Shown here: piece after piece, positions 1-58,960 of the stretch | Layout: each line of letters opens with the position of its first letter | Numbering within the stretch: the first letter of the stretch is position 1 | Assembly: GCA_017506865.1 (NCBI GenBank) | Contig: JAFCMP010000019.1 | Location: forward strand, 248,001 to 312,000 | DNA length: 64,000 bases | Direction of reading: 5' to 3' | Source: Tribonema minus | Lineage: Eukaryota > Sar > Xanthophyceae > Tribonematales > Tribonemataceae | Notes under the pieces: generated by a model | What the model was told of the DNA's origin: nothing | The model's database searches: none | Seen by the model: the letters and a program-made list of their open reading frames with translations, nothing else | Program-made: the position numbers and the translations under genes

Positions 1-2301
1 ACCCTATTGCGCCCCAGATGTGCGCCTGTGCATCCTTCACTCTTAAAAATAGTTGGCGCCTTCATTCGACTTCACAGTTGAAGTTCAGTGCTTGCGAGGG
101 GAGAAGGGGAGCGGGGGGCTACACCATCGATCATGATGTGCCCTCATTGATGGCAGTCACAGCTGCACGCGCATGCGCAGCTTGCGAGCAGCCATCAACG
201 GCGAGTTGCTCAGCCAGGAAGGCTCCTGCGTACTTGATGTACCCAACATAACACTTGCCTCCCCGTGCGTTCCCAACCAACATCCCGCTCCCGCTGCACA
301 CCAGCGCTTGGGCCATACGATGCTCTGCACATGCGCTTCAACTTCAACTTGAACTGTAACCTCACGAGCACCATGTGTAACACAGCTGCCACAGGAAGCA
401 GCGCTCACCGGTCGCCATGATCACCGCGTGTGCCTGCACCGTCCGCGAAGAGCCCACGAGCTTCAACTTCAACTTCAATCTCACGAGCGCTATGCAACAC
501 TGCCACATACAGCAGCGCTCACCGGTGGCGATGATCACCGCATGCGCCTGCACCGTCCGCGAGGAGTTCCTGATGGTGAATGGCCGCTGCGACAGGTCCA
601 TACGATGCTGAGGTACATGAGCTTCAATCTCAACTTGAACTATGGCCTCGTGAGTACCAACACAGCTGCTACACAACATCAAGCAGCGCTCACCGGTGGC
701 GATGATCACCGTGTGCGCCTGCACCGTCTGCAAGGCGCCCGTGACGGTGAATGGCCGCTGCTACATCACGGGTACCAATAAAAGCCACATAGAACAGCGC
801 TCACCGGTGGCGATGATCACAGAGTGCGCCTGCACCGTCCGCGAGGAGCCCGTGATGGTGAATGGCCGCTGCGACAGGTCCACCGCCTCCACGTCCTCCG
901 TCTCCAGCTCCGCGCCCCAGCGCTCGGCCTGCGCGCGCATGTTCGCCATGAGCTGCGGCCCGCTGACCCCCTCTGCAGCGGGCGGGGGATGATTGCCGAC
1001 ACCAATGTATGTTCAGTCAAATGTGTTGTTGAAGTCCGGGGATCCCTGGGGCAGCGCTGACACGCCAATTTAGACACTGGCGGCGCGTTTGCCGGTTCTT
1101 TGGTGTGTAGAGATGGTCAGCGTGGCGTGTGCTGACAGGGGCGCTGAGGGCGTGTGAGCGGTGTGCACCAGCTGTCACAGCGCTCAGTGCTGCTGTGTCA
1201 CATAGTGTTCTGGAACGCGTGATCACTAGGTGAACCAGCCCGTGCCCGGTACATCATTCTGGCTTGGCGGCGGTGCGTGCCTCACCGCTGCACAGTGCCG
1301 CTCCGCGATGAGCTCCCCATGGTTGTTATATGTGCATCCATTGTCGCAGCAGGGCATGGGTTCATGTGGCCTTGTGTGTGGCGACTGAAATACTGGTTAA
1401 CTGATGTGCAGCGCTTCACGTGCGCGGGTAAGGCACTTACCAGGAAAGCCTGGGAAATTCTCCACCTCCGTGGTGGTGACTAATTGGCCACTGCGCACGT
1501 ACGACACACCAGTGCAGCGGACAGCAGAGGTAGCCCAGTGAATTTGTGTGCGAGGGTTTGATGTTGGTGGCAGCCGCAGGATGAGCCATTTTTGCAACAA
1601 ACCAACACTGATATATCAGCGTGTGCTGTGAAATCAGCGCTTGCCTTGGCCTGCTGCCAGCCTGAGGCATTCGAGGTGCGGACAGCAAAGTTCCTGTAAA
1701 GTTACAGAGCCCGTTGCGCGTCGCCGAACGCTGCAAGCGCACCAGCTTTTCCATGCGCATCAGATGCTGACTATCAAACTTGCTGACGAGACCAGCTTTG
1801 CCGTCGATGCGCGCTTGCTTACCTGCGCGCAGGCCAGAAACTTCAACTTCTCGTGTGCATCAAAAATCGCTGACACCATGCTCGGCTTGCACGCTGCAGC
1901 CGAATACTGAGACTGTGGTTGCATGAACACCAGGCGTGGACTTGCAGCGCACGTGAAAGTCTCGGTATCTAGTTCACACGCGGAGGAGACATGAGCATAG
2001 CGAAACCGACCACGTACCCAGGTGGCCCGGACCTCAGGCCCTCGAAGAGCAAGGGCTTAAGGTTAGCTCTGGCCGCATAGATCGCCGCCGTGTAGCCTGC
2101 AGGCCCGCTCCCAATGATGACGACGTTCTCCACAGCCAGACCAGAAGCTCCATTAGCCTTGGCTTCGCCATTTACAGCCATCCTGACTGACGTGCTGCTG
2201 CTGCGCGACACACATCGCTGCACGGCTGCTGGTGGGACGGTCCACGCGCAGGCTGACCCCAACAGCGCAAGCTGCAGGAGCGCCAGCGTCAGAGGCGCCA
2301 T
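1..2301 (-). CDS. NADPH-dependent thioredoxin reductase, plastid-targeted (5' exons; runs off the window)
   Basis: Flavoprotein that reduces thioredoxin with NADPH. Three exons are visible on the minus strand: 2301-2018, 1490-1441 and 972-805. The phases agree at both joins (2+1, then 1+2). The ATG at 2301 opens a signal peptide ([19 protein letters not shown]) followed by W and a Ser/Arg-rich stretch, as in bipartite targeting to secondary plastids. Then come the FAD-binding [17 protein letters not shown], the joined [38 protein letters not shown] and VIIATG. These match bacterial-type (NTR) thioredoxin reductases. The redox-active Cys-x-x-Cys exon and the NADPH domain are not found in positions 1-804 and should lie beyond the window edge. 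Donor of exon 3 is GTGAGCGCTG. Family assignment is firm; plastid location is inferred from the leader only. Confidence 0.9.
405..760 (-). repeat. Three tandem copies of thioredoxin reductase exon-3 end plus donor
   Basis: Downstream of the real donor at 804, the last 50-70 bases of exon 3 and the donor recur with their donors near 690, 519 and 405. Each copy can still be read as (T)VQAH-x-VI(I/M)ATG followed by GTGAGCGCTG. The donor-to-donor spacings are about 111, 171 and 114 bp, all multiples of three, and one frame stays open through all three copies. Confidence 0.9.

Positions 2302-58960: not shown

Follow-up and report, generated by a model that had tools for sequence, protein, structure and literature searches.

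DNA that crosses or reaches splice junctions is copied, in direct orientation, within the adjoining introns of the xanthophyte alga Tribonema minus, a relative of the brown algae, tens to several hundred base pairs away from the junction itself. We describe this for a window, by which we mean the whole stretch of 64,000 bp analysed here (contig JAFCMP010000019.1, positions 248,001 to 312,000 of the forward strand), and for other loci of the same assembly (158 Mb in 554 contigs). We think it probable that the copies stem from recurrent, short-range direct duplication across the edges between exons and introns, tolerated as exon definition picks the innermost splice sites.

Copies of splice junctions in the window

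In the window, we recognised eight genes by visual reading of the translations, aided by a small codon model, and placed 60 junctions in them (31 donors and 29 acceptors); the median length of the 28 introns is 930 bp. The models of 30 junctions have independent support (16 of 16 in the helicase gene Has1 and 14 of 15 in the phosphofructokinase gene, PFK), and the remaining 30 are our own reading of the translations. Has1 (DDX18; 50187..58960, plus strand) has nine exons (50187-50876, 51133-51243, 52281-52514, 54047-54205, 54960-55130, 56065-56262, 56815-56970, 58061-58246, and 58775-58960). The protein spliced from this reading is the NCBI DEAD-box helicase of T. minus, with 100% identity over 499 residues. 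The two models are identical save for 6 bp at the acceptor of exon 2, where the NCBI protein starts the exon with two extra residues, and we adopted the NCBI version. Brown-algal proteins rank high for Has1 among the matches listed. PFK (18824..25896, minus strand) has exons at (at least 25896)-25689, 24720-24584, 23712-23539, 22850-22721, 21441-21312, 20917-20824, 20041-19784, and 18986-18824, of which the outermost two are placed in part. Its model equals P0121, the translation of a EukProt Trinity transcript, at 410 of 412 residues, with zero indel residues. Pfam scans of five read-through frames confirmed PFK and the RRM gene, and nothing beyond. The translin and TRAX-like genes, named from their translations, are both of the translin family and lie adjacent in tandem on the minus strand (8820-16110).

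Each junction was represented by a 60-bp probe, which was compared with its own intron using as threshold the maximum of 60 dinucleotide shuffles; about one false positive is expected among 60 junctions at this threshold. A same-strand copy in the adjacent intron exceeds the shuffle maximum at 33 of the 60 junctions. One of these, the TRAX donor at 10170, was discounted as a junction copy since its match is a CTG microsatellite, which leaves 32. No antisense copy exceeds the shuffle maximum in the adjacent introns of the window (0 of 60). The initial annotation had described partial copies of exon edges inside the adjoining introns, and had proposed aligning junctions to their own introns with a shuffled control; the excess found for the 60 window junctions confirms its description. 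The exons that it had named agree where they can be matched (exon 3 of thioredoxin reductase, exon 1 of the YhbY-like gene, five translin/TRAX junctions, and exons 3 and 5-9 of Has1). Per gene, sense copies occur at 1 of 5 junctions in thioredoxin reductase, 1 of 2 in the YhbY-like gene, 3 of 4 in translin, 2 of 6 in the TRAX-like gene (plus the microsatellite), 13 of 15 in PFK (one of them marginal, scoring 14 against a maximum of 13), 1 of 2 in the RRM gene, 4 of 10 in the oxidoreductase, and 7 of 16 in Has1.

The individual copies were recovered by both the junction probe and a self-BLAST of the window unless stated otherwise. In thioredoxin reductase (minus strand), the donor of exon 3 at 804 has three downstream copies (310..882; best pair 88.9% identical), as does the exon 1 donor of the YhbY-like gene at 4163 (4115..4502, plus strand). 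The acceptor of the last TRAX-like exon, at 9036, has five upstream copies of differing identity (8980..9681, minus strand). A weak upstream copy of the TRAX-like acceptor at 11576, spaced by 125 bp (11540..11735, minus strand), was found by the probe with a score of 17 against a shuffle maximum of 13 and is absent from the self-BLAST families. The translin acceptors at 13453 and 14657 each have an upstream copy (13436..14005 and 14605..14917, minus strand), and the translin donor at 15913 has a clean head-to-tail copy with a period of 133 bp (15729..15993, minus strand).

PFK, on the minus strand, has copies on both sides of its introns. Downstream copies accompany the donors at 18823 (three copies; 18249..18857), 19783 (one copy by the probe and two self-BLAST spacings, 116 and 239 bp; 19554..19859), 20823 (one short copy spaced by 165 bp, found by the probe and absent from the self-BLAST families; 20628..20853), 22720 (two copies with a period of about 274 bp; 22162..22806), 23538 (23407..23610), and 24583 (24288..24648). 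Upstream copies accompany the acceptors at 18986 (two copies; 18941..19500), 20041 (two copies; 19995..20392), 20917 (20913..21056), 21441 (spacing 162 bp; 21377..21686), 23712 (a clean 87-bp tandem; 23700..23873), and 24720 (three weak copies with spacings of 197, 598, and 701 bp, found by the probe and absent from the self-BLAST families; 24690..25451). The intronic copy of exon 2 (24288-24357) reads LID, like P0121, where the exon reads LVD; judging from these residues, an older or allelic version of the sequence seems to survive in the copy.

Further along the minus strand, upstream copies are found at the RRM gene acceptor at 31925 (31857..32198) and at the oxidoreductase acceptors at 39916 (three copies; 39879..40276), 41228 (one copy; 41213..41514), and 43970 (three copies; 43887..44575). 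The oxidoreductase donor at 39734 has a short downstream copy spaced by 175 bp (39529..39764), seen by the probe and absent from the self-BLAST families. On the plus strand, Has1 has downstream copies of the donors of exon 3 at 52515 (52477..52792), exon 6 at 56263 (56221..56614), and exon 7 at 56971 (two copies; 56875..57309), and upstream copies of the acceptors of exon 5 at 54960 (two copies; 54605..55036), exon 8 at 58061 (one copy; 57864..58153), and exon 9 at 58775 (two copies; 58418..58827). The exon 8 donor at 58247 has a weak downstream copy spaced by 175 bp (58217..58452), found by the probe and absent from the anchored self-BLAST families.

A second count used a fixed threshold and a 700-bp range, and dropped low-complexity probes. 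It gives sense matches for 32 of 59 junction probes (27 have none) versus an antisense match for 1 of 59. Outside genes, 48 of 609 probes match in sense versus 28 in antisense; in intron interiors the counts are 306 and 20 of 979, and in exon interiors 47 and 10 of 134. The interior matches are partly the other halves or the extensions of junction pairs, and the junction peak is broad. The claim that introns are filled with copies was too strong: recognisable repeats cover 5,505 of the 25,326 intron bases in the window (22%), and at a score of at least 20 junction copies are missing from 10 of 28 introns. Nor is the suggested lengthening of introns borne out over the 28 introns, for which the correlation between length and number of copies falls short of significance (rho 0.24, P = 0.21).

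Anchoring and anatomy of the repeats

Self-BLAST of the window requires no annotation. Direct pairs within 1 kb were grouped into 35 families. There are 73 such pairs versus 2 inverted ones, and only 2 of the 75 direct pairs lie more than 1 kb apart, which agrees with the local process and the direct orientation first proposed. One of the two inverted pairs within 1 kb is a perfect 46-bp inverted repeat in an oxidoreductase intron (41522-41567 and 41968-42013). In 26 of the 35 families, the repeat includes a junction or ends at most 8 bp from one. Circular shifts give a mean of 8.4 anchored families (maximum 19) and local jitter a mean of 14.3 (maximum 23); 0 of 5000 randomisations reach 26 in either case, so the anchoring to junctions exceeds chance, as had been claimed. 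Among young families, i.e., those with a pair at least 88% identical, 13 of 14 are anchored. Gapless repeat pairs span a junction in 27 of 84 cases versus 9.4 expected. A separate set of families has 27 of 43 anchored (0.63), and its 16 unanchored families all lie within the 25.3 kb of intron. Outside genes we found 1 repeat family, in a baseline that is small (18.0 kb only).

The junction bias is not merely an effect of coding edges. None of the six stop-codon edges in the window has a copy (0 of 6), and among the loci described below copies are found at 3 of 24 such edges, which are uncertain (24 of 25 were left after a low-complexity filter, and their quality is doubtful). One of these three matches, in L076, adjoins a donor missed by the predictor.

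For the anatomy of the copies, we collected 122 of them (119 without the microsatellite junction), spaced by 42-763 bp, from 65 junctions, with at most four per junction and low-complexity probes dropped. In the shuffle test, junctions other than the microsatellite have up to five copies. The earlier proposal of recurrent duplication is supported. Each copy consists of an exon edge plus some flanking intron. On the exon side, the first 10 bases of the copies are 0.86-0.88 identical to the real junction, and the match declines outward; the first 10 bases on the intron side match less well (0.75-0.80). The exon-side homology of the nearest copies in the window extends at most 96 bp, below exon length, which for these copies speaks against duplication of whole exons, as the initial annotation had held. 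Its word "tandem" applies strictly to 10 of 65 nearest copies, in which the homology covers at least 0.85 of the spacing (a 66th, the microsatellite, was left out); in the others, the spacing generally exceeds the length of homology. Set against a minisatellite, in which one constant unit recurs many times, the families give a mixed picture, with the range of spacings and the copy numbers given above and a regular period in a few of them (133, 274, and 87 bp). Hence, some copies are clean head-to-tail duplicates (periods 133 and 87 bp), whereas the majority are shorter fragments separated by other or decayed sequence.

The splice dinucleotides are retained in about 80% of the copies. Among donor copies, GT is intact in 60 of 74, the score is at least that of the real donor in 47 of 74, and the motif from -3 to +6 is identical to the real one in 35 of 74. 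Among acceptor copies, AG is intact in 37 of 45 and the score is at least that of the real acceptor in 17 of 45. GT or AG has been lost about as often as expected if these dinucleotides drifted like the adjoining copied exon bases, and we rejected selective destruction or preservation of the splice signals on this ground. Two other candidates were set aside. Copying linked to splicing was considered as several young copies stop a few base pairs from the splice site, but the reach of the copies into the intron differs greatly from one to the next. Recursive splicing (AG|GT ratchets) was considered because GT follows the acceptor in many cases in Has1; overall, only 8 of the 29 placed acceptors have this arrangement, so it is not general.

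A separate observation concerns the hexamers TTGAAG and TTAGGG, which point away from exons in the introns, up to a few hundred base pairs from junctions, in the window and in loci L001-L087. At the loci, words of the TTGAAG type occur 90 times in sense and 12 in reverse after donors, and 12 and 72 times before acceptors; TTAGGG occurs 18 to 3 after donors and 1 to 4 before acceptors. In window introns, the hexamers number 25 sense to 15 reverse in the 5' halves and 16 to 36 in the 3' halves. This polarity may mean that intron ends pair as RNA, or that exon-side DNA ends are extended outward.

Other loci and paralogues

Searching the genome with profiles of PFK, DEAD, kinase, and AAA, four families in all, identified 87 loci. 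We dropped L006, which lies in the window, and L057, which has an odd length, leaving 85, in which 113 junctions were predicted from a coding score and splice matrices; low-complexity probes were left out here too. Many kinase loci have the whole domain in one exon and contribute few junctions. Sense copies are found at 47 of the 113 predicted junctions and antisense copies at 7. Of 70 loci with a predicted junction, 29 have a copy at a score of at least 20 and 41 do not. Junction copying is therefore common elsewhere in the genome, without being universal. The best copy lies downstream for all 28 donor matches and upstream for 16 of 19 acceptor matches, with 3 of 19 on the exon side; some of the acceptor matches are probable mispredictions or repeats (e.g., L009, L014, L037, and L069). 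Probes taken 500-600 bp into the intron still match in sense in 23-24% of cases versus 1-2% in antisense. At the protein level, a profile search of a chaperonin gene on contig C51 shows a fuller match to an exon start preceded by two partial ones to the same profile positions, which begin 177 and 367 bp farther upstream.

Two pairs of paralogues bear on the age of the copies. L001 and L002 are 90.7% identical in a 408-bp alignment that surrounds one exon. In L002, the acceptor is copied twice upstream, the donor once (weakly), and the next acceptor once; none of these copies is seen in L001. L075 and L076 are 86.3% identical over 277 bp; by eye, the acceptor is copied twice and the donor once in L076, and none of these copies is seen in L075. 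These two comparisons suggest that copies come and go quickly. In our own reading, L076 is an FtsH-like paralogue whose apparent real donor is a GC site (CTCAAG|GCGAGT) and whose downstream copy has GT (near 1804 and 1918). Elsewhere, L045, L047, L057, and L068 (contigs C90, C179, C467, and C359) hold kinase frames in stretches of 2.6-3.8 kb that are 95-99.8% alike across contigs, which suggests a recent mobile or segmental family.

Origin of the copies and choice of splice sites

Direct orientation, proximity, and variable ends together fit short-range direct duplication. Its source could be replication slippage or the fill-in of staggered breaks, with extra or decayed sequence often lying between the copies. 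The duplicated unit would hold only part of the exon, and the intact exon would retain the innermost splice site; copies would stay on the intron side because the exon must remain intact. Once made, they would decay like neutral DNA while new ones arise at the conserved edge, and the outcome would be a turnover of intron sequence, with possible lengthening outward from the exons. Simple head-to-tail duplication is an incomplete account of the copies, whose homology is usually shorter than their spacing. The process is likely biased to exon edges, through transcription, R-loops, or chromatin at junctions. Part of the bias is explained by conserved exon edges, which we estimate keep copies recognisable up to about twice as long. 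We are more tentative about a stronger claim, a possibility that we rate below the duplication process itself: that splice junctions are duplication hot spots at which transcribed edges keep adding copies outward, that each intron is thereby assembled out of its own exons, growing inward from its two ends, and that exon definition hides thousands of near-perfect decoys genome-wide.

If short direct duplications instead arose everywhere at one rate, those internal to exons would be purged and those at junctions would be visible through the conserved exon. Such a uniform neutral process would account for the unanchored families (9 of 35, and 16 of 43, several of the 16 being read as fragments of anchored ones) and for copies that decay about like neutral DNA. 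We nevertheless regard it as unlikely. Simulations of uniform duplication with exon conservation and a rule that exons stay intact, run at four arbitrary rates and without indels, anchor a fraction of 0.28-0.44 of families versus the 0.63 observed, and even with 0.44 expected the excess of anchored young families has P of about 2e-4. The single family in 18.0 kb outside genes compares with 16 unanchored ones per 25.3 kb of intron, and the stop-codon edges, equally coding, stand without copies in the window. The original interpretation holds in part: a bias of the process towards junctions is favoured by the simulation and by the near-empty intergenic DNA, both small samples, and mere tolerance of copies at junctions also fits.

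The copies could also be selected as splicing elements, i.e., as decoys or spare sites through which exon recognition is regulated or reinforced, and the mostly intact dinucleotides and many strong motifs, including the identical donor motifs, would suit such a role. We consider this improbable: GT and AG are kept about as well as the neighbouring copied exon bases, paralogues of the same gene differ in the presence of copies, and nearly half of the junction probes (27 of 59) have none. Tandem arrays can be mis-expanded in long-read assemblies, which makes an artefact of collapsed or expanded reads conceivable, yet we give it hardly any credence, as the copies are mostly diverged by several to tens of per cent, differ in spacing, sit at junctions, and recur on many contigs, including at the protein level in the chaperonin gene. 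Equally negligible, as the initial annotation had held, are introners or other dispersed intronic transposons: the repeats do lie near splice sites in introns, and a 106-bp stretch of a PFK intron matches C51 at 73%, but almost no direct pair in the window is far apart, the anchored families consist of their own exon, and a 2.2-kb PFK stretch, the one compared with the whole genome, matches elsewhere, among the best candidates scored, only PFK exon sequence (two places), the C51 counterpart of that 106-bp stretch, and a single simple-sequence tract in short pieces (about 30-50 bp each), with no near-identical copy beyond such short simple pieces.

The copies confront many exons with competing sites. 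In Has1 (NCBI) and in the transcript-derived PFK, the innermost site is used, with one intron per place and the copies left out; site use was read here from protein models of these two genes. According to a study of human minigenes (PMC9225289), when two identical donors are flanked by introns of 365 nt, the upstream donor is used exclusively; for 3' sites the same study reports a cross-exon effect that lowered the preference for the upstream site and was less strong than at 5' sites. With a median intron length of 930 bp, the cross-exon proximity rule as given there leads one to expect the innermost pair, as in Has1 and PFK. We infer that exon definition selects the innermost sites in the alga. 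The evidence for the rule comes from human cells and is clearer at 5' than at 3' sites; the stramenopile case is drawn from gene structures.

Among the literature matches listed, taken by titles and the starts of abstracts and with subscription literature outside the scope, there is no report of the junction-copy pattern in Tribonema or elsewhere. The closest systems concern the birth of introns. In the potato RdRp case described by Ma et al. 2016 (PMC4974935), a duplication across an intron-exon boundary took its splice signals from the parental boundary and created a new intron. A direct duplication that crosses the boundary and inherits splice signals is common to both. There, as reported, a single event creates an intron, whereas in Has1 and PFK none arises, the copies stay intronic, the innermost site is kept, and about half of the junctions are involved. 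The Drosophila cases of tandem duplication reported in PMC2891723 likewise represent new intron positions. Rogers and Bendich 2025 (PMC11782384) describe direct repeats of 4-30 bp between the 5' and 3' borders of introns and take them as insertion footprints. Direct repeats at intron borders are again shared; compared with the repeats in that account, the Tribonema repeats are longer in most cases and link a single border to copies within its own intron. Introners, as presented by Gozashti et al. 2022 (PMC9860276), have fast intron evolution in common with our case, but spread by self-copying through many genes, where they give rise to introns, whereas the Tribonema copies are local. The pattern is a genome-scale variant of the known evolution of introns by tandem duplication.

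The origin and lengthening of introns are usually ascribed to transposons; here, most recognisable local repeats (26 of 35 families) include the adjoining exon edge. The quick turnover suggested by the two pairs of paralogues would make intron turnover directly observable. The genome also offers a natural experiment on splice choice, in which many exons compete with decoys of equal motif strength. For annotation, there is a risk that gene predictors report spurious alternative exons in genomes of this kind. Where it could be checked, the innermost site wins, which would lend strong support to exon definition beyond the animals.
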